Origin: Actinoplanes sichuanensis
GTDB taxonomy: Bacteria; Actinomycetota; Actinomycetes; Mycobacteriales; Micromonosporaceae
Direction: 5' to 3'
Assembly: GCF_033097365.1 (NCBI RefSeq)
Contig: NZ_AP028461.1
Coordinates: 2,480,001 to 2,544,000, forward strand
Length of the DNA: 64,000 nucleotides
Each line of letters starts with the position of its first letter. Position 1 is the first letter of the stretch. Under the pieces are notes generated by a model. The model saw only the letters and a program-made list of their open reading frames with translations, ran no database searches and was not told where the DNA came from. The translations under genes and the position numbers were made by a program. Below, piece after piece: positions 46,232 to 63,670 of the stretch.

Positions 46232-46238
46232 TATCGCT

Positions 46239-47037: not shown

Positions 47038-48906
47038 TCAGATTCCCCGGTGCACCAGGGCCGCCGCGATGTCCCGCAGCGACGGCTCGGCGGCGGCCAG
47101 GTCGGCGAGATGGTCGTCCGGCAGGCCGGGCAGCGGGGTCCGCTGGGCCGTGCGCAGCCAGCGCCGCACCGACTGCACGGCCACGGCAGGCTCCATCCGT
47201 TCGCGGCCCATCCGGTGGTGCAGGGCCAGGTAGGTCACCGTGGCCAGTCTCGCCGGCACCGGACGCAACCAGCCGATCACGCCGGTGCAGCCGGCGTCGA
47301 TGAACGCGTCGGCGAGCGTCGGGAACTCCGCTTTCGGCGGCAGGATCACCAGACCCGGCGTGGCCACGACGGCCGGCACGTCGGCGAAGTGCAGCAGCGT
47401 GGGATCGGTCGGTTCGCTGCGGGAGTAGCACGAGCGGAACAGGGCGATCTCCGGTCCGGTGCCCACGAACGCCGGATTGCGGTCCACCGGGGGGCGCTTG
47501 CGGCCGGCGAGGGTGAGCAGCTGGGAGGGCCCCGCGAGGGTCGAGACGATCGAGATCCCGCTGGCCGGTGGCCGGTCCGCGGCGATCAGGGTCCGGCGGG
47601 GGAGGTTGCGTTCGGTTCCCGCGGCGACCCGGCCCGAGGAGGCGTGCAGCAGCAGCACCGTGTCCGGCTGCGGGCAGGCGAGCGCGTCGGCGCCGACCGC
47701 GCGTAAGGCCGCGGTGAGCCGGGCGAAGACCGGTGCGTCGATCGAGTCACCGAGCGCCGCACCGACCCGCAGCACCAGGGGCAGTGCCGCGTCCGGCAGC
47801 TCACCCGGCCCGGCGGTGGCCGCGCGCAGGCTGGTCAGGGCGTCGGCATGGTCATCCAGCGCCTCGGGTCCGCCGGTGGCGCGGCCCCGCTGGATCAGTG
47901 CCGCGGCGAGGAACAGGTGGTCGGCCGGTGTGGGTGGCCCGGTGTGGACCACGGTGGTCGCGAGCGCCACGAGGTCATCGGCGACGTCCACGTCGGCGGC
48001 CTTCACCAGCAGTTCGGTGAGCAGCGTGTACGGGTCACCGGTCCCGAGACGCTCCCGGAAGGCGTGCCGAGCGAGGTCGGCGTCAGGTGCCGGAGGAACG
48101 GATGCGGCGCTCCGAGAGGTGTGCGGGGGGCCCTGAGGGGCCGGCCCGGGGGCGCGGGGTGCCGGTATCGGACCGTCGAACACCGGCACGGCACGGTCCA
48201 GCGGATCCGTCTCGGACATCGGCTGGTTCATCGTGAAGATCGCGCCCAGACCTGGCCCCAGCCCTTGCTTCTGCAGCCGCCGCAGGGTCTGCATGGCCTG
48301 GATCATCCCGCTCATGGCGAAGCCGCCCTGCCCGCTGAGCGTCTTCGCGGTGCCTTCGGCCATCGCCAGCATGGCCGTGAACAGCTCGGTCATCTCCGGG
48401 GTGAGCTGCGGTCCGGCCAGTGCCGTCTGGAAATGCTCGACCGCCTGCCGAGCCGAGTCCACCTGTGCCGGGCTGCCCCGCCCGAAGGCCGGCGAGATGC
48501 CGGCACCGGCGCCGCATCGGCTGAGAAGCAGTTGGCCGATCATGCCGTGGGCTCCGGCGATCATCGGCGGCGACAGCCGGGGCGAGTCCAGCCCCTCCGA
48601 CAGCAAGGCGATGGCCGACTCCCGGTCACGTTCCGCGCCGCCGTGCCCGGAGAACCGGGCGGTCAGCAGGGATCCGAGCTGGGCCGCCACGGCTCCGCGC
48701 AGCCCGTCGCCCGGCTGGAAGTAGCCGTAGGCCTCGTCGAGGTGCCCGATGGACTCTTCGAGGTCGGGCAGCCCCTTCGGGTTGCCGGGGCCGGTCCGCC
48801 AGTAGCGGTCGGCCAGCAACTGCCCCAGTTCGCACAGGGTCTGTGTGCGCGCGGGCCCGGCCAGACCGGCCAGCCTCCGGCGCAGCGGGTCGGCGTCGTC
48901 GATCAA
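47038..48906 (-). CDS. Degenerate CHAT-domain protein with helical N-terminus
   Basis: 622 residues from TTG 48906, which has GAGGGG seven bases upstream and follows the active CHAT gene by 12 bases. Residues 1-220 are TPR-like helices, 220-290 a Pro-rich linker. The C-terminal 200 residues follow the CHAT order: TVLLLHASSGRV where the catalytic HxxxHG should be, EIALFRSCYSRSEP where LxACxTG should be, then DAFIDAGCTGVIGWLRPVP and AVQSVRRWLR. The catalytic second His is replaced by Ser; a Cys remains in RSCYSR. So it is probably an inactive relative, a regulator or decoy for the upstream CHAT protease. Last gene of the operon. Confidence 0.7.
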   Translation of the reverse strand: MIDDADPLRRRLAGLAGPARTQTLCELGQLLADRYWRTGPGNPKGLPDLEESIGHLDEAYGYFQPGDGLRGAVAAQLGSLLTARFSGHGGAERDRESAIALLSEGLDSPRLSPPMIAGAHGMIGQLLLSRCGAGAGISPAFGRGSPAQVDSARQAVEHFQTALAGPQLTPEMTELFTAMLAMAEGTAKTLSGQGGFAMSGMIQAMQTLRRLQKQGLGPGLGAIFTMNQPMSETDPLDRAVPVFDGPIPAPRAPGPAPQGPPHTSRSAASVPPAPDADLARHAFRERLGTGDPYTLLTELLVKAADVDVADDLVALATTVVHTGPPTPADHLFLAAALIQRGRATGGPEALDDHADALTSLRAATAGPGELPDAALPLVLRVGAALGDSIDAPVFARLTAALRAVGADALACPQPDTVLLLHASSGRVAAGTERNLPRRTLIAADRPPASGISIVSTLAGPSQLLTLAGRKRPPVDRNPAFVGTGPEIALFRSCYSRSEPTDPTLLHFADVPAVVATPGLVILPPKAEFPTLADAFIDAGCTGVIGWLRPVPARLATVTYLALHHRMGRERMEPAVAVQSVRRWLRTAQRTPLPGLPDDHLADLAAAEPSLRDIAAALVHRGI

Positions 48907-48918
48907 CGGAGATCCCCT

Positions 48919-51582
48919 CTATCGGCCCCAGTGCAGGAACCCGGCCCACGACACGACCGCGGCCGGGTCGGCCGTGCGCAGCTGGTGGCGGAGTTCGGCG
49001 GGCATGCGGTCGGGCACCTGCCGGTGCGGGTCGAGCATCCACAACTGGGCGTCCCGCAGCGCCGCCCAGACCGGCCGTCGCCGGTCCATCCGGAAGTGGT
49101 GGAACATGTACATCAGCACCGACGTGTCACTGTCGGGCACGCTCCACTGGGTGGAGAGCACCGATCGGACCCCGGCGGCGAGGAAGGCGGTCCCCAGGCT
49201 GTACGCCTCGTCGTACCCGTTGATCGCCTGTCCGGTGTGGCAGGCCGCCAGCACGACCAGCCCGATCTGTCGCTGCGGAGTGCGGGCCATCAGTGGTCCC
49301 AGCGATTCGGCGGTGAGTCGATCCCCGTCGGCCAGCAGGACGTACGCGGTGGGCACCCCCTCGGTCGCCATGAAGCCGTGGCAGGCCAGATGCAGCATCG
49401 CCCCGGCGCCCGGGCCGGTGTCGCTGAGCCAGGCGGTGACCTCGGCCGTGCTGCCGGGGCCGGTCGCGCTGGGGCTGCCGTCGGCTCGCCGGCCGACGTA
49501 ACGGGCGCCCGGGTAGAAGGAGCGGCGGATCGCGTACGCCTCGGCGCGCGCGGCCGGCAGCGAGCGGGTCCGGCCGCCGGTGCCCGGATCGCCGACGATC
49601 AGACCGGTCGGGGCCGGCGGTACCGCGTTCTGCCCGGCCGCGTGGCACAGCATGCGGGCCGACGCCGTATACGAGATGGCGACCAGCTCGACCGCGTACC
49701 GGCCGTCGCCGCGCCGGGCCGCCTGCCACGGGATGAGACCGAGGTTGCCCATCGGCACGAGCACCATCCGCGGCGGCCGGTCGGCTGGAGTGCCGAGCCG
49801 GGGCAGGTACTTCTCGACGAGCGGCCCGATCGCGGCCCGCCACGCCCAGTCGCAGAGTCTGTCGAGGCTGCCGGTGAACGCGGCGTCCGGCGCGGGCTCG
49901 TCGTCGATCACGTCCAGGTCACGCCGGGCGGACGCCGCGAGGTACCGCTCGACGTCGTGATCGGCGGTCCGCAGGCCGGTGAGGTGCAGGTAGCTCGGCG
50001 GCCCGGAGGCGGGGGCGACCACGGCGTACCCCGGGATCGCGGGCATGTCGTCCGGACCCGGAACGAGATAGACGAGAGCGTCGGCGTCGAGTGCCTGTAG
50101 CGCGTTCTGGATCTCGCCCAACTCGGGTGGGTCGAGAAGCGCGGTCTCGCCGTTGTGGGTGAGCGCGGCGAGTGCTTCCCGTCGTAACGCCGTGGGTAGT
50201 CGGTCGGGCTCGCCGGAGGCGACCGCGGCATCCCAGCGCCCGGCGAGCTCGGGGTGCCCGGCCTCGCGTAGCCGTCGCCCGATCGTGCCGACCTCGGTGG
50301 CGGCGAAGAGAGCCAGCCCGCGTCCCATGTCGAGGGCGGCGATCGCACCGGCCGGGTCGCCGGCCTGCAGGGCCCACCGGGCGGCGTCGGCGGCCTCCCG
50401 GGAGGCTTCGCGAGCGGCCACGGTCGCGCCGGCCAGGTCGATCTGGACCATCACCTGGTAGATGTGCCCGCGCAGCGCGTCCATCACGGCGTCCTGGTGC
50501 GCGGTGCCCGTGCCGGTGAGCCGCTGCTCGACGGCGGAGTAGATCTGGTTGATCCATGCCCACTGCGCGTGGTGGGCGCCCCCGGCCGACTCACGTGCCT
50601 CGAGCAGCAGGTCCCGCGCCTCCGGCAGTCCGGCGATCGAGTTCGTCACCTCGGAGCGCCGCAGGATGGTCAGGGCCAGCCCGGAAAGGTGGAAGGGGCG
50701 CTGCGGGTCATCCGGGCCGAGGGAGGCGACCGCCTCACGCATCTTGCCGATGGCCTGCTCGATCTTGGCCGGATCGGTCTCCTCCCCGCCGTCGAGTAGT
50801 TTCATCGCCTCGTGGTTGAGGCGAATCGCCAGGCCGTACACCTCGTCGAACCCGTCTGTTCCGCGCGGATCGTCCAGGTCCTCCGGGGCGAGACCGATGA
50901 GCGGGCCGATCGAGTTCAACGTGTCCTTCCCCATGGCGCGTAAAGGATCGTCGGCGGCCAGGGCATCGGTCGCCACCCGGAGGCGTCGCATCGGTTCCAG
51001 GAGGTCGGCGCCGGTTCGATTGGCGACTGCCAGATCGCTCAGCGCGACGAGGACGTCCGCCGTCGGCAGCGCCTGCGGCATGCTGGTCGCGGCCTGTTCC
51101 CGGAGCCGGGCGACCCGCTCGGGTAGTTGCTGGATCGAGGACTCATCGCCCTCCCGGAGCGCTGTCAGAAAACCGAGACCGTGCCGCGCTGAGTCCAGCA
51201 GCATCGCGGCCGGCGAACCGGGGCCGGCCTCGGCGGCGAGCTTCTCGACCTCGATGAGCGCGGTGCGGGGATCATGCACCTCGCCATACGCGGCGGCGAA
51301 CGTGATGCACATCGCCGTGACCCCGGCCCGCAGAGCCGGCCACGTCGGTGACTGCGGCGGGTCGGCGTCGGCCGCTGCGACCAGTCCGTTCAGACTTCTC
51401 ATCCGGGTCGGTTCGACTTTGCCGTCGCGGACGATCGCCGCGATCAGCGCCGCGGCCAGATGGGCACGTCCCGGTGCGCCGTCCGGCAGCGCCAGCACCG
51501 TGTCGATCGCCGCGTCCACGTCGCCGTGACCGGACGCGGCCAGTGCCACGCCCGCGTATCCGAGCAGGAGTACGTCGTCCAT
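48919..51582 (-). CDS. CHAT-domain caspase-like peptidase with TPR-like N-terminus
   Basis: 887 residues from ATG 51582; a GTG at 51594 that overlaps the TerD stop (GTGA) would add four residues. Residues 1-480 are TPR-like helices. The C-terminal CHAT domain is intact: His735 in MLHLACHGFM and Cys781 in VVLAACHTGQ, followed by LGTAFLAAGVRSVLSTQWSVPDSD and a final ALRDAQLWML helix. CHAT proteases cleave target proteins once released by the sensor part; bacterial examples include Craspase-like and gasdermin-activating enzymes. Here it is the likely output of the GTPase/chaperone operon. Target unknown. Confidence 0.9.
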   Translation of the reverse strand: MDDVLLLGYAGVALAASGHGDVDAAIDTVLALPDGAPGRAHLAAALIAAIVRDGKVEPTRMRSLNGLVAAADADPPQSPTWPALRAGVTAMCITFAAAYGEVHDPRTALIEVEKLAAEAGPGSPAAMLLDSARHGLGFLTALREGDESSIQQLPERVARLREQAATSMPQALPTADVLVALSDLAVANRTGADLLEPMRRLRVATDALAADDPLRAMGKDTLNSIGPLIGLAPEDLDDPRGTDGFDEVYGLAIRLNHEAMKLLDGGEETDPAKIEQAIGKMREAVASLGPDDPQRPFHLSGLALTILRRSEVTNSIAGLPEARDLLLEARESAGGAHHAQWAWINQIYSAVEQRLTGTGTAHQDAVMDALRGHIYQVMVQIDLAGATVAAREASREAADAARWALQAGDPAGAIAALDMGRGLALFAATEVGTIGRRLREAGHPELAGRWDAAVASGEPDRLPTALRREALAALTHNGETALLDPPELGEIQNALQALDADALVYLVPGPDDMPAIPGYAVVAPASGPPSYLHLTGLRTADHDVERYLAASARRDLDVIDDEPAPDAAFTGSLDRLCDWAWRAAIGPLVEKYLPRLGTPADRPPRMVLVPMGNLGLIPWQAARRGDGRYAVELVAISYTASARMLCHAAGQNAVPPAPTGLIVGDPGTGGRTRSLPAARAEAYAIRRSFYPGARYVGRRADGSPSATGPGSTAEVTAWLSDTGPGAGAMLHLACHGFMATEGVPTAYVLLADGDRLTAESLGPLMARTPQRQIGLVVLAACHTGQAINGYDEAYSLGTAFLAAGVRSVLSTQWSVPDSDTSVLMYMFHHFRMDRRRPVWAALRDAQLWMLDPHRQVPDRMPAELRHQLRTADPAAVVSWAGFLHWGR

Positions 51583-51590
51583 GGTCCGCC

Positions 51591-52688
51591 TCACCGGGTC
51601 TTGAACTCGACCGGCCCGGCGTCCATCTGGAACGTGCCGTCCGGGTACAGGGCGGGCCGGGCCTCGCTGCGCGGCTTGGAGTAGCGCTCGACGTGGCGTA
51701 CCGAGATCCGGTCCGGGGCGGTCAGGTCGAGCAGCGCGATCGCGACCCAGTACGAGTACCGGTTGCGGTGCCGCAGCGGCGTCTGCACCACTGACCCGTC
51801 GCCGTTGTCGATCTCGGCGAAGGCGTGGAAGGCGGCGAACGAGCCGAACCCGTTCTCGACCGCCGAGTACGCGCAGATCAGCACGTACCGGAACTGGTCG
51901 GTGCGGCTCACCTGCAGGGTTTCGCGGCCGCGGGAGTCACCCGAGGTGAGACAGATGTACGGCGGGCCGCTCAGCGAACCCTGATCGCGGTAGTAGCAGA
52001 CACCGGAGCGGCCGGAAACGTCCACGTACAACGCGTAGAGGTCCAGATCCTTGGCCCGCATGCTCCAGTCGAGTGCCGCCCGCAACGACGCGCTGCGGGC
52101 GACCGACGCGTGTTCGCCCTGGTCCAGGGAGACGCTGCCGACGATCAGGCCGGACGGTGGCGCGGCGATCGGAGCGGCCGCGGCCGGATACAGGGCGGCC
52201 AGGTGGGTGGTGAGCCGCCGTTGCAGGGTGCCGTCCGGCTCGGCGCGGAAGCGGGACACGAGCAGGGCCGCCGAGCCCAGCCCGTATCCGGCCCGCTGGT
52301 AACTCCAGCCGCCGTCCGGCTCGCGGACGAACTCGGCCAGCAGCACCACGGGTTCGGCGGCGCCGGCGCGGTGCCGGAACGGCGTACCGAAGATGTGGAT
52401 CTCGGCTTCGGTGGTGGCCTCCGGACCGCGCAGCAGGCCGACCGTGATCCGTCTGATGTCCTCGCCCGCGGCTGACGGCGTCAGCCGCAGCGTGTCGCCG
52501 GCGTACTGCGCCGCGCCCGTCGGATGGGCCGGCATGCCGGCGAAGACCAGGTCGTACTCCGAGGTCACCCGGCCCCGGCGGTCGAGTAGAAGAGCGATCG
52601 GCTGGGCCTTGCCGGACGTGGCGGCGACGCGGACCTCGGCCGTGTCGCCGGTCATCGGGTGCCGGGGCACCTCGGTCAGCGCGGTCAC
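51591..52688 (-). CDS. Double TerD-domain protein
   Basis: 365 residues from GTG 52688, which overlaps the stop of the small membrane gene by GTGA. Two TerD-like beta-sandwich halves are visible: first PIALLLDRRGRVTSEYDLVFAGMPAH ... GEDIRRITVGLL (about 10-90), then DWSMRAKDLDLYALYVDVSGRSGVCYY ... GDSRGRETLQVS (about 190-265). TerD domains bind calcium between such halves and occur in stress and signalling loci. The typical GDN-G-DDE calcium loop is only partly conserved (SGDSRGRE). Placed between GTPases and CHAT protease, it likely acts as a sensor or scaffold. Confidence 0.75.
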   Translation of the reverse strand: MTALTEVPRHPMTGDTAEVRVAATSGKAQPIALLLDRRGRVTSEYDLVFAGMPAHPTGAAQYAGDTLRLTPSAAGEDIRRITVGLLRGPEATTEAEIHIFGTPFRHRAGAAEPVVLLAEFVREPDGGWSYQRAGYGLGSAALLVSRFRAEPDGTLQRRLTTHLAALYPAAAAPIAAPPSGLIVGSVSLDQGEHASVARSASLRAALDWSMRAKDLDLYALYVDVSGRSGVCYYRDQGSLSGPPYICLTSGDSRGRETLQVSRTDQFRYVLICAYSAVENGFGSFAAFHAFAEIDNGDGSVVQTPLRHRNRYSYWVAIALLDLTAPDRISVRHVERYSKPRSEARPALYPDGTFQMDAGPVEFKTR

Positions 52689-52867
52689 GGGCCGTAGCCC
52701 GTTCCGGTGCCGGGGCCGGTCTGCACCTGCATGCCGATGCCGAAGAACCCGAGCAGGCAACCGAGCAGGGTGAGCAGGACGAGGAAGGTCATGAAACCGA
52801 TCGCGCCGGCCGCGCCGTAGTAGACGATCCGCCGCCACCTGTCGTACGGGCCGGTCTGGCTGCTCAT
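52685..52867 (-). CDS. Small single-helix membrane protein
   Basis: 60 residues from ATG 52867, whose A is shared with the TGA of the upstream GTPase gene. One membrane helix (IVYYGAAGAIGFMTFLVLLTLLGCLLGFFGI) spans residues 15-45, followed by a Gly/Thr/Pro-rich tail. Its tight placement between the membrane GTPase and TerD genes suggests a subunit of a membrane complex. Confidence 0.75.
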   Translation of the reverse strand: MSSQTGPYDRWRRIVYYGAAGAIGFMTFLVLLTLLGCLLGFFGIGMQVQTGPGTGTGYGP

Positions 52868-54402
52868 CAGTTCACTCCGTATCGGCCGAGGGTCCACAGG
52901 AGCAGGGCACGGACGTTGTCGTCGACGTCGCCGTCGGTGAAGCGGGCGGTGGTGTGGAAGTAGCGGACGTCGCCGAAGGCCTTGGTGATGGCGCGGACCA
53001 TGTTGTCCATGCCGGCCCGGTCGTTGAGCCAGTCGCGGACGACGTCGTTGCCGCCGTCGCCGAGTTCGGCGCAGATCGGAATGCCGTCGGTGAGGTCGCT
53101 CTTGGTGACGGCGACGGCGATCGCCTTCTTACCCGGCTGCACACCCATGCCTTCCAGGTTCTGCAGGACCTGGGAGAAGATGAAGTCGGGTGGCTGGGCC
53201 GACCGGTACTGCTGGTTGGCCTGCTGGGCGGTGCTGTCCAGGGAGTTCCACACGTCCGGGATGGCCAGCGGGTCGACGATGAAGACGAAGCTGTGTGCCA
53301 TCCGCATGAACCGCAGTTCGTGCAGGCGGGCCGATTCGTTGAGGCGTTCGCCGGGCGGGTCGAAGATGTGCATGAGCCGCTTGACCCCGCCGCGGCCGTC
53401 GAGGTTGAACGAGTAGGCGCGCATGGCGTCGCCGGCCAGGGTCTTGTCGGTGCCGCCCTTGCTGCGTAGCGCCTGCTGCAACTGGTCGATCTTCTTCTTG
53501 GTGGCGTCGTCGGCCGGTGACGCGGACAGGCCCGGTAGCGGGTCGCCGTCGACGAGGGCGGCCGAGAGGGCGAGCATCATCCGGGTCTTGCCGCTGGTGG
53601 TGGCGCCGAGCATGGGCACGACCACCTCGCGGGCGGTGCCGGCGCCCTCGGCCAGGGGCGTGCCGCAGTTGGGGTGCGGGCAGAACGCGCTCATGCGGTG
53701 GCTGCCGAGCAGCAGCAGGGTGGGCATCTTCGTGCCGCACCGGCAGATGCGCCGGAGCACGCCGTACCGGCCGGGGCGGACGTTGTGGTGTTTGACCGCG
53801 CAGGTGGGGCACTCGTAGGCCGGGTACGCCATCGGCTGGTGGCAGACCGGGCAGCTCAGCCGGATGCGGCGGATCGCCGACAGGCCCGCGTCGATGCCGC
53901 GCAGCGTATAGAGCAGGGCCTTGGCCAGCACGAACAGGGTGCCCCAGAGGATGACCGCGCCGACTACGGCGATGCCCAGCACGAACGCCGTCAGGGCCGA
54001 GCCGAGCCAGAGGCCGGCGCTCAGGAAGAACCCGACGGCCTTGCGGTACTTGCCGGTGCCGTACCCGAACCAGCGGCCTTTGACCTTGTCGTTGGCTTTG
54101 CGTCCCTCCAGTTTCATGCCCTGCCAGGAGAGGCGGGCCACCTGCTGCAGGTCACGGCCGGCCGGGCCGGAGAGGTAGTGCAGGTAGGCGGGCGGGTCCA
54201 GGCCGGGTTGCGCGATCGGTACGGCCTGGCCCGGCGTGCGCAAGCCGAGTGCCTGTCCGCTGGCCCGCAGGTAGGCGCCCAGGTAGAGGACCAGGAAGTA
54301 GCCGCTGGAGCCGAGCACGGCCGGGATGGCCAGGGTCAGGAAGATGCTGCCGATCAGCAGGTACCACCAGAGGAGGAACATGAGATAGATGAGGTAGAAC
54401 AT
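52867..54402 (-). CDS. Membrane-bound zinc-ribbon GTPase
   Basis: 511 residues from ATG 54402. Residues 1-45 contain one or two hydrophobic helices and 122-165 a further pair. A double zinc-ribbon follows: CPVC and CPTC (184-201), CRCG (220-223) and CPHPNC (241-246). The P-loop GATTSGKT is at 266-273, DPPG (G3) at 348-351 and TKSD (G4) at 433-436, all intact. This is a TRAFAC-like GTPase with an N-terminal zinc module, membrane-linked. Similar 'double-GTPase' proteins were described beside GAP1 proteins in multicellular bacteria. Its partner is the soluble GTPase at 56810. Confidence 0.82.
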   Translation of the reverse strand: MFYLIYLMFLLWWYLLIGSIFLTLAIPAVLGSSGYFLVLYLGAYLRASGQALGLRTPGQAVPIAQPGLDPPAYLHYLSGPAGRDLQQVARLSWQGMKLEGRKANDKVKGRWFGYGTGKYRKAVGFFLSAGLWLGSALTAFVLGIAVVGAVILWGTLFVLAKALLYTLRGIDAGLSAIRRIRLSCPVCHQPMAYPAYECPTCAVKHHNVRPGRYGVLRRICRCGTKMPTLLLLGSHRMSAFCPHPNCGTPLAEGAGTAREVVVPMLGATTSGKTRMMLALSAALVDGDPLPGLSASPADDATKKKIDQLQQALRSKGGTDKTLAGDAMRAYSFNLDGRGGVKRLMHIFDPPGERLNESARLHELRFMRMAHSFVFIVDPLAIPDVWNSLDSTAQQANQQYRSAQPPDFIFSQVLQNLEGMGVQPGKKAIAVAVTKSDLTDGIPICAELGDGGNDVVRDWLNDRAGMDNMVRAITKAFGDVRYFHTTARFTDGDVDDNVRALLLWTLGRYGVN

Positions 54403-54431
54403 CGGATGCTCGCTCTCCGTGGTCGGTGCGG

Positions 54432-56807
54432 TCAGAGCCGTCGGCGGGGCAGGAACCGGCCGATACCGCGGGGCACCTCGGCCTCGCGCCACTTCGTGAA
54501 GGCGGCCGGCACGTTCTTGGCACTGGAGCCGGCCAGCATCTTCTCCAGGTGATCGAGGTCCCGGGTCTTCCACCGGGCGACGGTGCCGGCGAAGGCCCGG
54601 TCGAGCTCGTCGGCGATCGCCCGGTCCTTGCGGGCCAGGCGGGTACGCGTCTCGAACGTCCGGGCGGCGATGGCCATGACTTCGTCGTCGGGCCGTTTGC
54701 CCAGGGTGGCGGCGAGATGTTCGCGATAGTGCCGCCGGATCGTCGGGTCGACCGTCGGTAGCAGGGCGACCAGGTGTTCCGGGTCGAGCCGGAGCAACAG
54801 CACGTGGATCTGGCCGGTGAGCCATCGGGCGACCGGCCGCTCGCCGTGACCCACCATGCCGAGCAGCTTGTGGACACGTTCGTCGAGTTGCCGGCCACGG
54901 ACCCGGTCCGCCGAGCGGATCTGCTGGCGCGACCAGACCATGCCGCGGGCGCGGTCCTCGGAAGCGGGGGACAGCCGTGGCCCGAGCTTGCGGTCCTCGA
55001 CGAACTGGGTGACCACGAAGTACGGTCCCCACGCTTCGCGGGGCTCGTCGTCGCGGGCCAGCACCTGGTCGAGCCGGTCGAGCAGGTGGTCGGACTCCCA
55101 GTAGTGTTGCGGCGCACCGCGGACGATCTCGGCGGCCTCGTCGAGGGTCCACTCCCGCGGCCAGAGCCCGGTGATCACCGATCGTTCCGGGACGCCCTTG
55201 CCGGTGAGGCGGATCAGCGTGTCGAGGCGGTCCTGCGGGCGGCGGGCGGCCCGGGCCAGCAGGACCATCCGGCTCAGGTCCGGGTAGGCCGCGAGTTCGT
55301 CGTCGCCCACCACGTCGCTGAGCCGGGACGCCACCGCCAGCACCGCGGTCTCCCGGCCGGACAGGGCCGCCGACAGGCCGTCGAGCACACCACGGCGTAC
55401 GTCCGGGGCCTTCGCCAGCAGGTCGGGGATCGGCTGGTCGGGGTCGTCGAGCAGGATCGGTGCCACCAGGTCCCGCCCGTATCCGGCCAGCCCGGCCGGT
55501 CGTAGCGGCAGCCGGGCGTCCAGGGCCACGGCGATCAGGGCGAGCGTGTCGTGGGGGCGATCAGCGGCGCGGCTCAGCGCGGCGGTGATCTGTTCGACGC
55601 CGTAGGCGATGCCCCGGTCGGTGGCCGGCCGAGGCACCCGTGCCGGGACCACCGACGGCTCGTCCAGGAGCAGGTCGAACGCGCGTACCTCGGTGTCGGC
55701 GAGCAGGTTCTCGTCACCGGTCCCGGTGGCGACCCCGATCAGCGACAGGCAGTGTGGGAGGGTCAGCGTGTCGTGGTCGAGGCAGCGCTCGACGAGGTCG
55801 GCGACCAGGCGTGGCCGCAGCCGTTCGGCGGCCGACGGCAGCCAGCGCAGCATGGTGGCCAGCGCGTCCGGTTCGAGCGGCAGGTCGGCGCGCAGGGCCC
55901 CGGCCACCGCGATCGGATACCAGGCGGCGAAGTCCGGCTCCCGGCCGGTGGCCAGCGGCTCGGCCAGCGACCAGACGGTCTGGGCGTCCTCCGGGCCGAG
56001 CGCCGCCAGCATCTCGGCCAGCGGGTGCACCGCGCCGTCGGAGATCTGTCCGCCGACCGCGTCGAGCAGGAAGTAGCTGCGCAGCGCTGATTCGTCGGCG
56101 GTGAAGTCGGTTTCCGGGACCGTCCCGACCAGGTTTTCGGTGCCGCGTCCGGGCCGGTAGCTGTAGGTGGCGAAGGACAACCGGCGGGCCATCGGCGGCG
56201 GCAGCAGGTGGCAGACGGCGGAGATCCAGCGGGCCACCTTCTCGCTGTCGGACTCCAGCACGATCACCGACCGTTCGTCGGCGACGATGGCCCGCTCGAC
56301 CGCGGTGAGCAGCCGCGGCACCCAGCCGAGCCGACCCGCGTCCTGCAGGAACGCCTCGGCCGAGGCCCGGCCGAAGACCGCCGCCGGGGTGGGGCGCAGC
56401 TCGGGCAGTTCGGTGCCGGGGGACTGGGTGGCCGACCAGAAACCGGCCGACCAGAAGTCGATCGGCAGTGCGCCGTCCAGTTCCTCCCGGCCCGGGGGCA
56501 GGCTGAGCGCGTGCACGAAGTAGTTGCCGAACCGCTGCGAGTAGTCGTTGCCGACGAAGACGGTACGGGCCAGGACGGCCGGTTGGTCGTCGGTGCCGGG
56601 CAGGTAGCAGAGGTTCACCGGACAGCCGGCGATCTGCTCGGAGGTCGGCTGGTAGCCCAGCGAGCGCGGCGGCTCGTACGACGTGGCCTGCTCGACGCGG
56701 CGCAGGACGTCGTCGCCGACGCCGGGGGTGGCGGCGTTGAACTGGAAGCCGGGGTAGCCGGCCAGGCCCGACTCGCAGGAGGTGTAGTACATCTGCGGCG
56801 CACCCAT
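54432..56807 (-). CDS. GTPase-associated protein GAP1 (GAP1-N2 type)
   Basis: 791 residues from ATG 56807, two bases after the upstream GTPase stop. The N-terminal YYTSCESGLAGYPGFQFNAATPGV and RSLGYQPTSEQIAGCPVNLCYLP are hallmarks of the GAP1-N2 domain (Pfam), and FATYSYRPGRGTENLVGTVPE continues it. Middle and C-terminal parts (about 300-791) are all-helical, matching GAP1-M/GAP1-C. The family was defined by co-occurrence with GTPases; it is proposed to regulate or recognise them. Sits between two GTPase genes, as expected. Confidence 0.85.
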   Translation of the reverse strand: MGAPQMYYTSCESGLAGYPGFQFNAATPGVGDDVLRRVEQATSYEPPRSLGYQPTSEQIAGCPVNLCYLPGTDDQPAVLARTVFVGNDYSQRFGNYFVHALSLPPGREELDGALPIDFWSAGFWSATQSPGTELPELRPTPAAVFGRASAEAFLQDAGRLGWVPRLLTAVERAIVADERSVIVLESDSEKVARWISAVCHLLPPPMARRLSFATYSYRPGRGTENLVGTVPETDFTADESALRSYFLLDAVGGQISDGAVHPLAEMLAALGPEDAQTVWSLAEPLATGREPDFAAWYPIAVAGALRADLPLEPDALATMLRWLPSAAERLRPRLVADLVERCLDHDTLTLPHCLSLIGVATGTGDENLLADTEVRAFDLLLDEPSVVPARVPRPATDRGIAYGVEQITAALSRAADRPHDTLALIAVALDARLPLRPAGLAGYGRDLVAPILLDDPDQPIPDLLAKAPDVRRGVLDGLSAALSGRETAVLAVASRLSDVVGDDELAAYPDLSRMVLLARAARRPQDRLDTLIRLTGKGVPERSVITGLWPREWTLDEAAEIVRGAPQHYWESDHLLDRLDQVLARDDEPREAWGPYFVVTQFVEDRKLGPRLSPASEDRARGMVWSRQQIRSADRVRGRQLDERVHKLLGMVGHGERPVARWLTGQIHVLLLRLDPEHLVALLPTVDPTIRRHYREHLAATLGKRPDDEVMAIAARTFETRTRLARKDRAIADELDRAFAGTVARWKTRDLDHLEKMLAGSSAKNVPAAFTKWREAEVPRGIGRFLPRRRL

Positions 56808-56809
56808 GT

Positions 56810-58015
56810 TCAGTCCTTTCCGGTCGCGACGACCTTGAGCCGGCTCAGCAGCCACAGGAACGGGTCCTCGACGCGGTGCGGCTGGATGGTTCCGCCGACC
56901 TTCTGCCGCTGCTGGCCCGGTGCGAGCGCGGGCGGCACGGCGCCCAGTGCGGAGAGGCCGAAATAGCGGAAGGTGCGGTAGTTCTTGGTGAGCAGCGCGT
57001 CGATCTGGCCGCCCTCCCAGTCGTAGAGCAGCGCCTGCACGTGCGCGTGGACGGCCTCGCCGTCGCGTTCGTCGAAATACGGGGTGCCGGGCGCGGGCTG
57101 CCGTAGCGGGCTGTCCTCGGGCAGACCCTCCCAGAGCGCGTCCACCTTGGAGAACGCCACCGCCACCGGGATGTCGATCATCTTGTTGGGTCCGGCGCCG
57201 GGCAGCTTCTGGAGTACCTCGGTGACCCGGGTGAGGATGTTGATCGGGCTGTCCGACCGGGCCGCCTCACGTTGCGCGGCCGACGGCAGGACGCTCGGAT
57301 CAAGACCGAACTTCTCCATCACGTTGGGTACGGTCAACGGGTCGAGCAGCACGATGATGCCGTCCGCGCAGCTCAGATACCGCACGTTCTCGGCCACGCC
57401 CTTGTCGGATTCGAGGTCCTCGCCGGCGGTGTCGAAGAAGGAGAGCACGGTGTGCCGCAGCGTGCTGCGGAACCGTTTGCGTTCACCGAGCGACACCCGG
57501 AAGACGAACGGCGCGCGGCCGCGGTCGGCGGCCGCGGTCCTGGTGGTGACCGGGAGCACGCCCTCGGTGTAGAGGGTGCGTTCCTCGCTGCTGAACTCCT
57601 TGCGGGTCCGCTCGTCGGCGCCGGTGACCGCCGCGTCGAAGCGCCGCCCGACCCGGTGGATGAGCTCGTGCAGCAGCACCGTCATGTAGACGGACTTGCC
57701 GCTGAACTTGGCGCCGATCATCGCGACCATGCGGTTGTCGATCTTGCTGTAGTGCACCGGCAGTTGGCTGTGGCAGTGCGGGCAGATCTGGATCGTCGTC
57801 TCGTTGTGGCACTTGCCGCACCGCGCCGACAGCCGCTTGCCGTTACCCGCGACCACCGGCAGCTGGTAGGTGTTGTCGCCGAGGATCTGCTCGCGGACCC
57901 GGTCCCGTTCGGGGGCGCACGGGTCGCCCTCGATCGGGCGCAGACCGCCGCAGCGGAACGTGATCTCCTTCTCGGCGAACTTCCCGTAGCAGTACGGGCA
58001 GGTCAGCTTGTTCAC
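56810..58015 (-). CDS. Soluble zinc-ribbon GTPase
   Basis: 401 residues from GTG 58015, two bases after the FN3 protein stop. An N-terminal zinc module has CPYC (6-9), C22, CGKC (66-69) and CPHC (78-81). The P-loop GAKFSGKS is at 101-108, DTAGED (G3) at 195-200 and SKVD (G4) at 289-292, all intact. No membrane helix. Another TRAFAC-like double-GTPase-system member; the two GTPases and GAP1 probably form one switch. Specific nucleotide not testable by eye. Confidence 0.82.
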   Translation of the reverse strand: MNKLTCPYCYGKFAEKEITFRCGGLRPIEGDPCAPERDRVREQILGDNTYQLPVVAGNGKRLSARCGKCHNETTIQICPHCHSQLPVHYSKIDNRMVAMIGAKFSGKSVYMTVLLHELIHRVGRRFDAAVTGADERTRKEFSSEERTLYTEGVLPVTTRTAAADRGRAPFVFRVSLGERKRFRSTLRHTVLSFFDTAGEDLESDKGVAENVRYLSCADGIIVLLDPLTVPNVMEKFGLDPSVLPSAAQREAARSDSPINILTRVTEVLQKLPGAGPNKMIDIPVAVAFSKVDALWEGLPEDSPLRQPAPGTPYFDERDGEAVHAHVQALLYDWEGGQIDALLTKNYRTFRYFGLSALGAVPPALAPGQQRQKVGGTIQPHRVEDPFLWLLSRLKVVATGKD

Positions 58016-58017
58016 GG

Positions 58018-60660
58018 TCAGTGCCCTCCCGGCGTTCCCATGAGCACCACGCCGGACCCGCCGGTCCCGTGGTCGTCGACGAAACATCCCAGCCGGTACG
58101 GGCCGCGCGGATCGCGTACCTCGACGTCCACCGACACCGGCCGGCCCGGCTCCAGCCGCTGAGCCGGCACCCGCGCCACGGTCGTTCCCTGGTCCGGGCG
58201 CAGCGGCGCGATCCGGCCCGCGGTCTGCACCACGATCAGCTCCGGTAGCGGGCACACCTGCTCGGCACTGACCTCGATCCGGGTGCGCCGGCGGAACAGC
58301 CGGTTGCTCTCCACGAATCGGTATCGCACCCGCATCCCGGTGCCGGCCACCCGTACCGACACCGGGCTGCCGACCGCCTCACCCTCGGTGTCCCGGCTGA
58401 CCGTGGCCACCGACACGTGCACGGCACCCGACCCGGCCGGGATCTCCAGACCACCGTCGTCGCGGTACGACCGCAGCCAGCAGTCGGTCTCCTCGACGTG
58501 CCCCTCGGCGCCCTCCGACCACCACCGCACCCGGACCAGTCCGATACCCGGCGGCCACTCCCAGCTCAGCCTGACCTGGGTGCCGATCCGACGGGCCCGC
58601 AGCCGGGCGACCGGCGCGGTGTTGGTCACCGACACGGTCGGACCGCAGACCGCGCGGCCCGCGCCGACACTGAACGCGGTCACGAAGATCCGGCCCTGCG
58701 CCATCGGTACGGTCAGCGCGAACCGGCCGTCAGATGCCGGCTCGGCCCGGGCCACCAGCTCGGAGCCGTACCCGTCCAGTTCGGTCTCGGTGAGTTCGGC
58801 TCCGCGTTGCCAGCGCGGCCGGTGCGGCGCGGACCGCAGCCGCACCGTGCCGGCGGCCGGTGCGGTCCAGGCCAGCCGCAGCCTGCCCGGATCCTGGCCG
58901 GGAAGCGGTTCGACGACCAGATCCGGTACGGCCCGCGGCGCCTGCTGCGGCATGGCGGTGGCGGTCACCCCGGTCGACTCGATGACCCGACCGTTCCCGG
59001 CGTCGTATCCGGCCCGGATCAGATACCGGTACTCCCGGCCCGGTTGCAGACCCTCCTCGGTGAAACCGCCGCGCGAACAGGCCACGAGGCTGCCGTCGGC
59101 GCGGGCCACGGTCACCCGGGTCGCGTCGGACCGGGCCTGCCAGCCGACCCGCACCGAGGTCTCGTCGGCGGTCACCGACACGTCGGTGACCTCGGGCAGC
59201 AGCGTGACCGGGCCGGCGCTGGTGCCCGGCGACCAGACACCGTCCGACCTGGTGGCGAACACCGTGTAGTACAGGTCGTCGCCGGCCGGCGGCCGGGAAT
59301 CGACGATCTCGTTTCCATCGGTACGGCCGACGACCTCGCCGTCGGTGGCCGAGCCGGCCGGCCGCTGTCGGGTGCGGACCACCTGGTAGGCCACGCCGCC
59401 GGTGCGTGCCGGGCTGGGTGTCCAGCTCGCCGTCACGTGATCACCCGACGCCGCGCCGACCCGGGCCGACGGGACCGCGGGCGGCGCCAGCATACGCAGC
59501 CGCCCGGCCAGATCCGTGTCGTCGGCGGCCTCCCGGACCGCCTCGGTGAGCAACTCGGCCGCGTGTTCCGGACGGCCCGCCGCGATCTCCTGCTGAGCCC
59601 GGGTGACCAGCCCGGCCACCTTCCGTACCGCCTCCTGGATGCGTTGCCGCAGCTCCACGCCCTCCTCGGCGGGCAGCGTGGCGATCAGCCGCTCGGCCGC
59701 CCGCAGCGACCCGGCCGCGAACAGCTCCTCCACCTCGGCCGTCGGATTCCGGGGTGCCGCGGTACCCTCCCGGGCCATCAGCAGAGCCAGTGCCAGCTCC
59801 TCGGCCTCGTTGGAGTCCAGGCCGACCCGGACCGCCTCGCGCGACACCCGCCGTACCGTGGCCATCGGCATCTCCGCGGCCTCGCGCATCACCTCGGTCA
59901 GCTCCCACAACACGAGCTGGTCGAGACTGCCCCGCTGGACCGCGTCACCCAGGTTGACCAGCAGGTTCTCGGTGGCGGTCTTGCGGTCGTCCTGTGCCCG
60001 GCGCTCGGCCCGGTCCCTCGCCTCACGAAACATCTGAGCGGTCACCGCCTGGCCGTTCAGCCGCAGGCCCTTGCGCAGCGTCACCGGGCGGGCCGGGCTG
60101 CCGGGGTCGGTGGCCAGCACGTCGACGGCCAGCCGCAGGCCGAGCAGCCGCTTGTCGCGCAGCACGTCGCGGCCCTTGCCGGGGGCGGTCTCGGGCAGCG
60201 GCCACAGCTCGTCGAGGATCCGGACCCGGAGTTTGGTCAGCTCACGCCGCAGGTCCGCCTCAGCGCCGACGCCGAGCCCGGCCGCCACCCGGGCGACCGT
60301 GGTGGCCGCGACGACCTGGCCACCGGAGACCATGTCGTCGACCACCTCTTTGATCTTCTGACTGGTCTCGGCGGTGTGCCGGTCCCGCTCGGCCGCGAAG
60401 TGCTCGGCGGTGAGCCGGCCGGCCTGATCCAGCTGCCGGTGTGCCGAGATCAACGTCTCGGCGAGCCGGAGGTACGCCCGCCGCTGCGTCAGCGACTGCC
60501 AGTACTTGAGGACCTCGGCCAGATGTGCCGGGAACCTGTCGCCGCGCGGGATCTGGTCGATGCTCATCGCGTACCTGGTGAACAGATCCGCCGGTGCGAC
60601 GTTGCCGTTGCGCCGGGCCGGATCGAGCACCTCCTGGCGGTACTTGTCCTGGTCGAACAT
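58018..60660 (-). CDS. Helical-FN3 scaffold protein
   Basis: 880 residues from ATG 60660. The first 380 residues are long helices with saposin-like or coiled character (KIKEVVDDMVSGGQ, RERAERRAQDDRKTATENLL), then from about 400 two or three fibronectin type III domains (SGDHVTASWTPSPARTGGVAYQVV; SVRVGWQARSDATRVTV; RLRLAWTAPAAGTVRL) and a beta-rich end. No signal peptide, so these FN3 domains are cytoplasmic, which is unusual. It is co-translated with the DnaK gene upstream (13-base gap). Likely a scaffold for the chaperone and GTPases. Confidence 0.75.
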   Translation of the reverse strand: MFDQDKYRQEVLDPARRNGNVAPADLFTRYAMSIDQIPRGDRFPAHLAEVLKYWQSLTQRRAYLRLAETLISAHRQLDQAGRLTAEHFAAERDRHTAETSQKIKEVVDDMVSGGQVVAATTVARVAAGLGVGAEADLRRELTKLRVRILDELWPLPETAPGKGRDVLRDKRLLGLRLAVDVLATDPGSPARPVTLRKGLRLNGQAVTAQMFREARDRAERRAQDDRKTATENLLVNLGDAVQRGSLDQLVLWELTEVMREAAEMPMATVRRVSREAVRVGLDSNEAEELALALLMAREGTAAPRNPTAEVEELFAAGSLRAAERLIATLPAEEGVELRQRIQEAVRKVAGLVTRAQQEIAAGRPEHAAELLTEAVREAADDTDLAGRLRMLAPPAVPSARVGAASGDHVTASWTPSPARTGGVAYQVVRTRQRPAGSATDGEVVGRTDGNEIVDSRPPAGDDLYYTVFATRSDGVWSPGTSAGPVTLLPEVTDVSVTADETSVRVGWQARSDATRVTVARADGSLVACSRGGFTEEGLQPGREYRYLIRAGYDAGNGRVIESTGVTATAMPQQAPRAVPDLVVEPLPGQDPGRLRLAWTAPAAGTVRLRSAPHRPRWQRGAELTETELDGYGSELVARAEPASDGRFALTVPMAQGRIFVTAFSVGAGRAVCGPTVSVTNTAPVARLRARRIGTQVRLSWEWPPGIGLVRVRWWSEGAEGHVEETDCWLRSYRDDGGLEIPAGSGAVHVSVATVSRDTEGEAVGSPVSVRVAGTGMRVRYRFVESNRLFRRRTRIEVSAEQVCPLPELIVVQTAGRIAPLRPDQGTTVARVPAQRLEPGRPVSVDVEVRDPRGPYRLGCFVDDHGTGGSGVVLMGTPGGH

Positions 60661-60673
60661 CGGACCTCCGCGC

Positions 60674-62281
60674 TTACGCCGAGACGCTGTAGCGGGCCAC
60701 GGCCGACCGGGCCTCGTCCACCTGGTCGTCGGACAGCCCGGCCTTGATCTCCAGCTCGATCTTCAGGTCCTTGCCGGTCGTCAGTTCCACCGCGTGGACC
60801 CGCAACAGGCCGTCGGTCTCCATCTCGAAACTGATGTCGATCGGTGAGCCCTTCGACAGCTGCGGCAGACCACTGATCTGGCCGTCACCGATGTGCTGGT
60901 TGTCGGCCACCACGTCGGACTCCACCGATCCCGACTGCTCCCAGATCTCCACCGAGATCGCCACCTGCCGGTCATAGGCGGTGCCGAACCGCATGGCATC
61001 GGTACGGGCCGGCAGCGGCGTGTTGGCGCGCAGCACGTGCACGATCCGGAACTCCTCGTTGCCCCGGTCGTCGATGTCGACGACCTTCACCCCGAACGCC
61101 CGGGGTACGACCGTGGCGACCTTCTTGCCGGCCAGCGCCCGCACCTTCTCGGTCGTCACACCGAGCTGGTTCGCGACGTCCTGCACGGCGGCGTCCGGGG
61201 CCGGGGAACCGTCCGCCGGCAGCTGCACTTTGATCGACTCGATCAGCGCGTACTGGGCGGCGCCCTTGGCCACGGCCAGGTCCGGGTCGTGCATCCGCGG
61301 CTTGAGACCCAACGCCTCCAGCCCCGCGGTGACCGCCGGCATCCGGCTCGACCCACCGACCAGCAGCACCTCGTCGAACGAGGTCACACCCTTCTCCCGG
61401 GCCGTCGCCAGGGTCCGCTCGGTGATCACGAACGTCCGCTTCAGCAGCTCCGAGGTCAGCTCCTCGAACCTCTCCCGGGTCACCTCGATCTTCGACACGT
61501 CACCGGCGAACCGGGCGTTGAACCGGCGCGTCTGCATGCTGCTCAGCTGCTTCTTGATGTCCTCGGCACCGACCGCGAGCTCCTGCAGGAACTCCTCGTC
61601 GTCGGCGGCCTCGGAACCGGGGTGCTCGGCCAGGAACGCCTCCAGCAGATACTCGGCGAGCCGGTCGTCCCAGTCGGCGCCACCCAGATGATGGTCACCG
61701 TCGGTGCAGATCACCTGGATCTCCTCGGGCGACACCTTGATCACCGTGGTGTCGAACGTGCCACCACCCAGGTCATAGACGAACAGCGTGCGGGTGCCAC
61801 CACCGGACACCGCGTCGTAATGCAGCGCCGCCGCGACCGGCTCGTCGACGATGCTCAGCACGTTCAGGCCCGCGATCGCGCCGGCTTTACGGGTCGCGTC
61901 CCGCTCGGCGACCCCGAAGTAGGCCGGCACCGTGATGACGACGTCCTTCACCTGCTCGCCGCTGTTCTCGGCAGCGGCCCGGGCGAGCTCCCGCAGGATC
62001 AGTGCGGAGATCGACTCGGGGGAGTGGGTCTGGCCGTGCGCGGTGATCTCGAAGGTCTGGCCCATCTGCCGCTTGATCAGCGACACCACCAGGTCGGGGT
62101 TGAGTTTCGCGTTGGCTTTCGCGTCCTTGCCGACCACCACGTTGTCGTCGGACTCGAAGTAGACGACCGAGGGCGTGGTGTCCTCACCCACCGCGTTCTT
62201 GATGATCGCGGGCCGCCCGGTGTCGTCGATCGAGGCGACACAGGAGTAGGTCGTGCCGAGGTCGATACCGAAGGTCGCCAT
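60674..62281 (-). CDS. Short Hsp70 (DnaK-like) ATPase
   Basis: 535 residues from ATG 62281. The ATPase domain is complete: FGIDLGTTYSCVA at the start, VITVPAYFGVAERDATRKAG, DEPVAAALHY, VYDLGGGTFDTTVI near 166, and LLVGGSSRMPAV near 320. The substrate domain follows but ends at residue 535, shorter than DnaK (about 610-640), so the helical lid is reduced, and the lid-tail EEVD-like end is absent. An insertion at about 360-420 interrupts the normal linker. It is preceded by a GrpE-like gene with a 3-base gap. Probably a dedicated, non-housekeeping chaperone or switch. Confidence 0.88.
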   Translation of the reverse strand: MATFGIDLGTTYSCVASIDDTGRPAIIKNAVGEDTTPSVVYFESDDNVVVGKDAKANAKLNPDLVVSLIKRQMGQTFEITAHGQTHSPESISALILRELARAAAENSGEQVKDVVITVPAYFGVAERDATRKAGAIAGLNVLSIVDEPVAAALHYDAVSGGGTRTLFVYDLGGGTFDTTVIKVSPEEIQVICTDGDHHLGGADWDDRLAEYLLEAFLAEHPGSEAADDEEFLQELAVGAEDIKKQLSSMQTRRFNARFAGDVSKIEVTRERFEELTSELLKRTFVITERTLATAREKGVTSFDEVLLVGGSSRMPAVTAGLEALGLKPRMHDPDLAVAKGAAQYALIESIKVQLPADGSPAPDAAVQDVANQLGVTTEKVRALAGKKVATVVPRAFGVKVVDIDDRGNEEFRIVHVLRANTPLPARTDAMRFGTAYDRQVAISVEIWEQSGSVESDVVADNQHIGDGQISGLPQLSKGSPIDISFEMETDGLLRVHAVELTTGKDLKIELEIKAGLSDDQVDEARSAVARYSVSA

Positions 62282-62284
62282 GGG

Positions 62285-62833
62285 TCACTCACTTCCGACG
62301 GGGTCTGATACGGAGCTGTCCGGGGCCGGGTCGACGGCGTCGAACCGGTGGAATCGGGCCCGTGCCGGGCGGCGGACCTTGCCGGTCTCGATCTCCAGCA
62401 GCCCGGCCGACAGTGCCTCGGCGACGGTGTTGTCCGAGTCCGGTTCGGCGGTCGGCACGGTTCCGGCCGGTGTGTGCCGACCGGCCGTGAACGGCTCTCC
62501 CGGAATCGCGAAGAACAGCTCGTAGCCGCAACGCTCGACGGCCAGCCCGACCTCGTCGGCGTAACTGTCCAGCAGCTTCGCGGCGACCGGCTCGGCACCA
62601 CCGAGGCGGACCGCCTCACGCACCATCGAGTCGTGCAGCCGCAGCAGATCGCTCACCACCGGCTCCAGCACGACCCGCCGCAGCCCCTCGCGGAACTCCT
62701 GGTTCTCCGCGTGCAACCGGTCGATCACCGACTCCCGGTGAGCCGACCGCTGATGGAAGTCGGCGAGCTGCGCCTCCACCCGCTCCAGCCGGTCCAGAAC
62801 CGGATCCGGGGGTTGCTGAATGGTTTCGTCCAC
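62285..62833 (-). CDS. GrpE-like nucleotide-exchange factor
   Basis: 182 residues from GTG 62833 with AGGGG upstream (GTG 62875 gives a longer form). The middle is a GrpE-like coiled coil and dimer helix (LERVEAQLADFHQRSAHRE, FREGLRRVVLEPVVSDLLRLHDSM), then a short beta-rich end (CGYELFFAIPGEPF). It has no charged disordered N-terminus typical of GrpE. As it is three bases from the Hsp70 gene, it is probably its exchange factor. First gene of the ten-gene operon. Confidence 0.75.
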   Translation of the reverse strand: MDETIQQPPDPVLDRLERVEAQLADFHQRSAHRESVIDRLHAENQEFREGLRRVVLEPVVSDLLRLHDSMVREAVRLGGAEPVAAKLLDSYADEVGLAVERCGYELFFAIPGEPFTAGRHTPAGTVPTAEPDSDNTVAEALSAGLLEIETGKVRRPARARFHRFDAVDPAPDSSVSDPVGSE

Positions 62834-63020: not shown

Positions 63021-63359
63021 CTACTCCGCCGGTCCGGTGGCGCGGGTGATCCGGCCGGCCAGGAACACCACGAGGGCGACGGCCGCCGCCACCCCGAGAC
63101 CGACCGCGACCGACCCGACGGTGAGCTTCGAGGCGAACGCGCCGATCGCGAGCAGGGAGCCGAACGAACCGACCGACAGCACCGACCCGAACGAGGCGAC
63201 CGAACCGACCGACAGGACCGAACCGAACGAGCCGACGGACAGGACCGAGCCGACGGAACCGATGGACAGCACCGAGTCCGTCGAGCCGATGCTCAGGATG
63301 GAGCCGCTCGACCGGTACGAGAGGAGGTTTCGGGCGGGGCGGGCGCTGTTCGTCGTCAT
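63021..63359 (-). CDS. Gly-Ser-repeat small protein with C-terminal membrane helix
   Basis: 112 residues from ATG 63359. Residues about 17-85 are built of nine-residue repeats of the form G-S-x-x-S-V-L-S-x (GSVGSVLSV, GSFGSVLSV), six or more copies, with a central leucine, which could form a short beta-solenoid or stacked strands. A hydrophobic helix follows (VGLGVAAAVALVVFLAGRI) near residues 85-103. The DNA mirrors the repeat with an imperfect 27-base periodicity. Related proteins recur in actinobacterial genomes without assigned function. Likely membrane-anchored with the repeat outside or under the membrane. Confidence 0.75.
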   Translation of the reverse strand: MTTNSARPARNLLSYRSSGSILSIGSTDSVLSIGSVGSVLSVGSFGSVLSVGSVASFGSVLSVGSFGSLLAIGAFASKLTVGSVAVGLGVAAAVALVVFLAGRITRATGPAE

Positions 63360-63664: not shown

Positions 63665-63670
63665 CATCAC

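Follow-up and report, generated by a model that had tools for sequence, protein, structure and literature searches.

A chaperone-linked GTPase operon with a CHAT protease and a degenerate CHAT protein in Actinoplanes sichuanensis

We identified in Actinoplanes sichuanensis (contig NZ_AP028461.1, positions 2,480,001 to 2,544,000 of the forward strand; this whole stretch of 64,000 nucleotides is referred to as the window) an operon at 47038-62833 that probably encodes a GTPase-centric conflict system of the GAP1-N2 type, of the Hsp70/GrpE kind and armed with a CHAT protease. The best reading of its ten genes, which we hold with somewhat better than even confidence, is a chaperone-gated, membrane-tethered GTPase switch that would license a caspase-clan protease; judged from sequence, its use is likely in immunity or suicide. 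The DO-GTPase/GAP1 conflict systems, in which one of the two GTPases of the GAP1-N2 type has transmembrane (TM) helices, were described by comparative genomics in 2020 (PMC7159879). According to section 29 of that paper, roughly 14% of the GAP1-N2 neighbourhoods include HSP70 and GrpE, together with an FNIII protein that is joined to DnaJ or to tetratricopeptide repeats (TPRs). An earlier note on this DNA had taken an Hsp70 with its own GrpE for a less described form, a suggestion that this section overturns: the GAP1/GTPase/Hsp70/GrpE core is already known, and the less described part of the operon is CHAT and TerD. The pairing of CHAT with a degenerate relative (pseudo-CHAT) and the predicted likeness of GAP1 to animal DENN proteins look new.

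Gene order and conserved core

Start codons and gene ends confirmed ten minus-strand genes spaced, in operon order, by 3, 13, 2, 2, 29, -1, -4, -4 and 12 bases, as the earlier note had described them (gaps of -4 to 29 bases). The -4 at the junction of CHAT and the TerD-related gene becomes +8 if CHAT starts at ATG 51582. A codon-usage gene caller returned the same ten genes, an agreement that is partly circular because the caller was trained on six of them. No sigma-70-like promoter site was seen at the operon, and terminator-like sites numbered 2 against 3.0 in shuffled sequences. We also rejected a HAIR-type heat-shock operator upstream: the sole match to what we take to be the consensus had 3 mismatches and lay inside the Hsp70 gene, with 0.60 matches expected.

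A related-locus search with the single GAP1 sequence returned none, and one with a GAP1 alignment returned 30 loci. For the comparison of neighbourhoods, 54 stretches around GAP1 matches were joined with the window (55 loci, numbered with an L); genes were labelled by profiles from the ten window proteins and called in the relatives by the codon-usage caller, with open reading frames (ORFs) below 35 codons dropped and genes cut at locus ends. The Hsp70-type core was present in 35 of the 55 GAP1 loci, window included. GrpE, HSP70, FN3 and GTPase genes stand directly before GAP1 in 30 of the 55, and the second GTPase follows directly in 29 of these 30. Parafrankia, Pseudofrankia, Lentzea, Amycolatopsis and a metagenome-assembled genome of a bog actinobacterium also carry the core. 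With the own genome counted in both, 48 of 300 genomes in the family have a GAP1-C match and 8 of 396 in the phylum a GAP1-N2 match; the 12,144,028-base contig of the window holds one GAP1-C match. The earlier note had named scattered homologues as the finding that would speak against a functional unit; the core is instead strongly co-conserved and, judged from these neighbourhoods, its arrangement is not a chance one.

Of the published Hsp70 theme, the window has GAP1-N2/M/C, two DO-GTPases, one of them with TM helices, HSP70 and, by family link, GrpE; the theme also includes an FNIII protein with TPRs (PMC7159879), for which the window has a candidate. A Pfam scan covered nine operon proteins, with a 60-aa peptide outside it, and agreed with the earlier identification of Hsp70, both GTPases, GAP1 and CHAT. 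The GrpE-like nucleotide exchange factor at the operon head (182 aa; 62285-62833) matched no Pfam model; its label is upheld by an iterated family, present in 31 loci including the window, that it shares with a protein (L066:2138-2758) matching GrpE PF01025 at 49.9 bits. The Hsp70 (535 aa; 60674-62281; PF00012, 342.7 bits) aligned to the solved DnaK 4rtf over 4-346 and 415-524, with the DnaK side stopping at 521. It thus comprises an ATPase domain followed by a beta substrate-binding domain, and its end falls near the position at which the DnaK lid starts. A canonical DnaK (632 aa, 725.9 bits; C1:9.40 Mb) and a canonical grpE (C1:9400461, 107.7 bits) stand together near 9.40 Mb in the same genome, so the Hsp70 of the operon is a dedicated copy.

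The third gene encodes a helical/TPR and FNIII protein (880 aa; 58018-60660) whose fn3 (20.4 bits) and TPR_20 (18 bits) matches both fall below the Pfam cut-off; by sequence it is the weakest fit of the operon to the published Hsp70 theme. An iterated profile places its family in 46 of the 55 loci. The FNIII protein of such systems has been termed rapidly evolving and a likely sensor (PMC7159879), and recognition of a client or invader is the likely role of the one described here. A precedent for chaperone-mediated phage sensing is provided by DnaJ with bNACHT25, in which the chaperone likewise serves indirect detection of the phage (PMC12169576). The system described there differs in combining a NACHT protein with the host DnaJ, without a GTPase pair and without a dedicated Hsp70 (PMC12169576).

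Flanking GAP1 are a soluble DO-GTPase (401 aa; 56810-58015; PF19993, 25.6 bits, just under the cut-off of 27) and a membrane DO-GTPase (511 aa; 52867-54402; DO-GTPase2, PF19993, 56.1 bits) with N-terminal TM segments. The P-loop and DxxGE motifs are kept in 48 of 48 members of the soluble family, window included, and the P-loop in 41 of 43 members of the membrane family. Hydrophobic segments of the membrane protein lie at 4-22 and 141-159, and zinc-ribbon-like Cys pairs were seen by eye in it and in the N-terminus of the soluble GTPase. The membrane GTPase of such systems is reported to carry a C-terminal TM helix (PMC7159879). In a hydropathy check no hydrophobic segment was flagged in the last 90 residues of any membrane GTPase; the L090 protein has one at 446-464 of 757 aa. 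The next gene, which overlaps the membrane GTPase gene by one base, encodes a single-pass membrane peptide (60 aa; 52685-52867; hydropathy peak 2.41). Peptides of 100 aa or less directly follow the membrane GTPase in at least 22 of the 29 complete operons, and in L040, L044, L051 and L071 a gap of 150-243 bases remains at this position, where the caller would drop the shortest ORFs. We infer that the peptide is the published C-terminal TM helix of the membrane GTPase, encoded as a separate gene; such a separate peptide is not described in sections 27 and 29 of PMC7159879.

Predicted fold of GAP1

GAP1 (791 aa; 54432-56807) passed the Pfam cut-offs for GAP1-N2 (136.8 bits), GAP1-M (83.7 bits) and GAP1-C (151.6 bits). 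Its AlphaFold2 model (pLDDT 92.9) pointed to a feature that the earlier note had missed: over residues 1-299 the structural matches in the Protein Data Bank (PDB) included DENND1A/B, DENND10, FLCN-FNIP2 and C9orf72-SMCR8. Examined for a d-DENN domain, the model shows helices after residue 262, and matches beyond about residue 300 were mostly solenoids. GAP1-N2 and GAP1-M are thus predicted to form a longin-DENN-like fold and GAP1-C an alpha-solenoid. GAP1 shares with the eukaryotic longin-DENN regulators this predicted fold and, in its genomic neighbourhood, GTPases as partners; it differs from them in being bacterial, in its alpha-solenoid C-terminal half and in having no detectable sequence similarity to them. 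Indeed, none of 19 GAP1 members matched a DENN or longin sequence profile family at E up to 10, and PDB sequence searches with GAP1 found no DENN chain.

In 2012 the DENN module was presented as an exchange factor acting on eukaryotic Rab GTPases; neither its DENN nor its d-DENN part was then known outside this combination (PMC3521125). No mention of DENN or longin is made for the GAP1-N2 systems in PMC7159879. We see about an even chance that GAP1 is a bacterial longin-DENN GTPase regulator. Conservation is concentrated in the N2 part and includes the motif R92-x-G94-N95-x-x-x-H99. In an alignment of 62 GAP1 proteins (of 120 listed and 138 found), R92, G94 and N95 were kept in 61, with a gap in the other, and H99 in all 62. 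If GAP1 is a DENN protein, this motif would be its catalytic or GTPase-contacting site.

The CHAT pair and the TerD-related protein

The CHAT protease (48919-51594; PF12770, 158.6 bits) has a long helical-type N-terminus and is 891 aa long from GTG 51594 or 887 aa from ATG 51582. Its catalytic residues are present as His739 and Cys785 (GTG numbering) in the motifs HLACHGF and LAACHTG; the Cys781 of the earlier note is the same cysteine counted from the ATG. The combination of a helical-repeat N-terminus with a caspase-clan CHAT domain and intact His and Cys is also found in Csx29 of Craspase (TPR-CHAT), from which the window protein differs in having no CRISPR partner and in being paired with a dead relative and a GTPase operon (PMC9729208, PMC10028731).

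Directly behind it lies pseudo-CHAT (622 aa; 47038-48906), a TPR-like protein with a degenerate CHAT part that scores 14.5 bits against Pfam CHAT (cut-off 24). The earlier note had called this CHAT degenerate. The catalytic His and Cys are both missing: MLHLACHGF of CHAT is replaced by 'LLHF', and GLVVLAACHTG by 'GLVILPP'. Both residues are gone in 11 of 11 rows that reach this region in a 13-row alignment, the other two rows (L117 and L106, from loci L059 and L069) ending before the CHAT part; seven database relatives were also checked by motif for His and Cys. That the degenerate CHAT is a conserved pseudoenzyme had escaped the note. The 13-row profile aligned to the window CHAT in hhalign (probability 96.9, E 2e-10; residues 444-615 against 630-879), and 6 of the 13 members have weak Pfam CHAT matches (best E 1.2e-4). 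In the structural model (pLDDT 80.2), residues 1-216 match TPR proteins, and the VIA rows fall almost wholly there. Foldseek returned five matches at E <=0.001: two Craspase chains (7xsr_C, E 6.7e-5; 8d9f_A, E 3.1e-4; TM-score 0.27), Nro1 and two entries for the anti-sigma factor DdvA. The literature was searched for DdvA together with CHAT, and nothing on DdvA turned up. We rejected the Craspase rows as proof of a CHAT fold (TM-score about 0.27, rmsd >=25). Because the structural rows cover the TPR part or score low, the CHAT assignment rests mainly on hhalign and the weak Pfam matches. An apparent CHAT-pseudo-CHAT fusion of 1590 aa in L052/L098 was also rejected, as the frame crosses N stretches and is an artefact; the database has the second gene apart (P0074).

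In the MoxR-vWA (VMAP) systems, catalytically dead caspase-superfamily domains have regulatory or peptide-binding roles, and about 70% of the effector-position caspases there are inactive (PMC7159879). The dead domain of those systems is fused to vWA; the one described here belongs to a TPR-type protein with its own gene, immediately behind that of an intact CHAT. The idea of dead caspase-like regulators is therefore not new, and the separate CHAT/pseudo-CHAT gene pair may be.

The gene before CHAT encodes a TerD-related protein (365 aa; 51591-52688). We call it TerD-related rather than a typical TerD because it scores 21.6 bits against PF02342, below the cut-off of 25.3, while its relatives pass or are named TerD. 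The search found 54 proteins, own copy included, 41 of them with PF02342 and many named TerD family protein. The TerD relation proposed in the earlier note thus stands; the 'double' TerD does not, with one partial Pfam match found. Relatives of the gene also occur in L054, L056 and Parafrankia soli L100.

The main text of PMC7159879 mentions no CHAT, pseudo-CHAT or TerD for the GAP1-N2 systems. The earlier note had correctly counted the operon among the conflict systems of Aravind and colleagues; its crediting of the CHAT link to them finds no footing in that main text, where 'CHAT' occurs 0 times, 'TerD' once (in VMAP systems) and where section 29 names no caspase, although the supplement may list CHAT or TerD. 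In a search of titles and abstract starts we found no other description linking the parts of the operon and no experimental study of GAP1-N2 systems.

Cargo, proposed mechanism and rival readings

Using a profile grown from the window protein, CHAT was found in 22 of the 35 Hsp70-type loci and in 0 of the 20 others (Fisher P 1.4e-6), and Pfam CHAT matches within 10 kb of GAP1 numbered at least 14 in at least 14 of the 35 genomes (0.55 expected), rising to at least 27 in at least 23 genomes within 20 kb (1.10 expected), with the caveat that the loci are related, so that the Fisher and Poisson figures overstate their independence; the effect is still large. These proximity counts are lower bounds from 150 of the 268 matches, in 35 genomes that were chosen for their Hsp70-type locus. 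In Parafrankia soli L100 the core is followed by CHAT, with TerD standing ahead of GrpE, and in Pseudofrankia L101 a vWA-TerF-like gene and CHAT accompany it; CHAT and Ter-type genes thus join the same core in distant actinobacteria. Other cargo includes a divergent TIR-CHAT-STAND gene common to L074 and Lentzea L102, CATRA in 2 of the 35 loci and divergent c0/c24 genes in 14 (of the proteins scanned, that of c0 is a vWA and that of c24 matched no family). A C14 caspase gene lies on the opposite strand in 8 of the 35, directly past the operon in 7 (L042, L043, L044, L051, L052, L054 and L055) and farther off in L059; it scored 97.8 bits with the PADLOC 'caspase' model. Eight loci (L051, L055, L061, L062, L066, L069, L070 and L076) have both a second HSP70 and a vWA protein, and L069 adds a protein with a bacterial Death-like domain (bDLD3). 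The C14 caspase, CATRA and vWA clusters were named from one scanned member each.

The analysis shows the order of the genes, their domains and co-conservation, the predicted folds and which catalytic residues are kept or lost; from these we infer the interactions, order of events, trigger and outcome as follows. An invader or misfolded client would be bound by the TPR-FNIII protein and by the lidless Hsp70, which its own GrpE would recharge, and cycling of Hsp70 would alter the state of the membrane-tethered GTPase pair. GAP1, with its longin-DENN-like module on a helical solenoid, would determine the state of the GTPases as their exchange or activating factor, and may also hold the output proteins. 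Switching would release the CHAT protease to cleave targets in the cell, which would be arrested or killed. TerD might read a second signal, perhaps a metal ion or nucleotide. As a non-catalytic CHAT partner, pseudo-CHAT could be a holder, adaptor or brake; we suppose that it holds or tunes the active CHAT, much as cFLIP relates to caspase-8. The GTPases and GAP1 as the core of the switch and CHAT as its likely executor, as put forward in the earlier note, seem right as far as sequence can tell.

The conflict-system reading is favoured by the domain matches, the collinear core, the CHAT enrichment, the CHAT and Ter-type genes at the core in Parafrankia soli and Pseudofrankia, the TIR-CHAT-STAND gene in Lentzea, the caspase, CATRA, Death-like and vWA cargo, the open frame of pseudo-CHAT with dN below dS, the DENN-like GAP1, the dedicated Hsp70 and the DnaJ-bNACHT25 precedent. 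Several results weigh against it. CHAT is not obligatory, being absent from the stretch examined in 13 of the 35 Hsp70-type loci, and TerD occurs in only 3 of them. Of the 48 soluble GTPases, only 25 yielded a [TSN]KxD G4 motif, the longin-DENN likeness is structural only and comes from one aligner, and the FNIII protein is not the fastest-evolving component (its mean identity is 0.69, that of pseudo-CHAT 0.57 and that of GAP1 0.61). Finally, PADLOC gave one weak match (BovA, for CHAT) among nine window proteins. The last result would also suit the main rival, a stress or developmental module in which the Hsp70/GrpE-GTPase core would keep watch over the quality of membranes or proteins in hyphae and CHAT would bring about programmed death or lysis in differentiation or severe stress. 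Hsp70, GrpE and TerD are classic stress proteins, and two components of the operon are membrane proteins. Yet the patchy distribution of GAP1-C in the family and the changeable cargo (caspase, TIR-STAND, CATRA, Death-like) suit conflict better than housekeeping, and we consider this module a possibility of distinctly lower probability than a conflict system.

It is improbable that CHAT, pseudo-CHAT and TerD are mere neighbours in a defence-rich region and stand outside the GTPase machine. The CHAT gene is divergent in L056, L074, L078, L079 and L081 and, among the matches listed, the nearest CHAT lies 10-20 kb off in several genomes, as such a view would predict. Against it, the window junctions overlap by 4 bases or stand 12 bases apart at most, CHAT and pseudo-CHAT follow each other collinearly in L040, L042, L043, L044 and L054, and the 20 non-Hsp70 GAP1 loci have no CHAT by the same window-grown profile. 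We consider a decaying pseudogene a highly unlikely reading of the degenerate CHAT. Among eight genes compared over six loci this one evolves fastest (mean identity 0.57, with HSP70 the slowest at 0.84), its dN/dS is 0.50 in the closest pair, and the copies in L059 and L069 stop before the CHAT part, as decay would have it. Nonsynonymous change is, however, below synonymous change and the frame is kept open: relatives with open frames occur in 9 of the 35 Hsp70-type loci, 7 of them with the degenerate CHAT part, and the same pattern of lost sites recurs across genera with the CHAT gene directly before wherever both are seen. By sequence, pseudo-CHAT is maintained yet rapidly changing, as expected for a regulatory or recognition partner.

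Judged from its flanks, the region around the operon looks mosaic. Just upstream, tRNA-Gln, tRNA-Val and tRNA-Val genes cluster at 63594-63826, in a 241-base stretch that is mostly matched (87-88%) only in G208 and G236 among 60 genus genomes, own aside; with the match confined to these two, the cluster looks like an accessory tRNA set. A short minus-strand gene upstream of GrpE (63021-63395) consists of a run of near-repeats, read by eye as Gly-Ser-Val-type units, and has a hydrophobic end; its product had no match in the Pfam scan. Downstream (43360-46892, minus strand) are a Fic/DOC family gene, a DUF4291 gene, a weak PrcB_C match and a 217-aa orphan. In G208 the best DUF4291 match is 2.4 Mb away from the tRNA stretch, and in G236 it is on another contig. 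Comparison of the flanks in the 60 genus genomes established no empty site for mobility of the operon. Two plus-strand calls inside minus-strand genes, tRNA-Pro at 49549 in CHAT and tRNA-Leu at 55239 in GAP1, were taken as false.

The operon could offer three handles for bench work: the protease that is its likely output, with the catalytic Cys identified; the conserved, catalytically dead relative encoded right after it; and GAP1 with its predicted DENN-like fold. The predicted fold would turn 'GTPase-associated protein' into a specific hypothesis, namely that GAP1 serves the DO-GTPases as an exchange factor or as an activating factor. It also has a bearing on the origin of the eukaryotic DENN regulators. 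If the hypothesis holds, a DENN module would already be at work in bacteria, beside its own GTPases, in a chaperone-gated, caspase-like death or defence machine.

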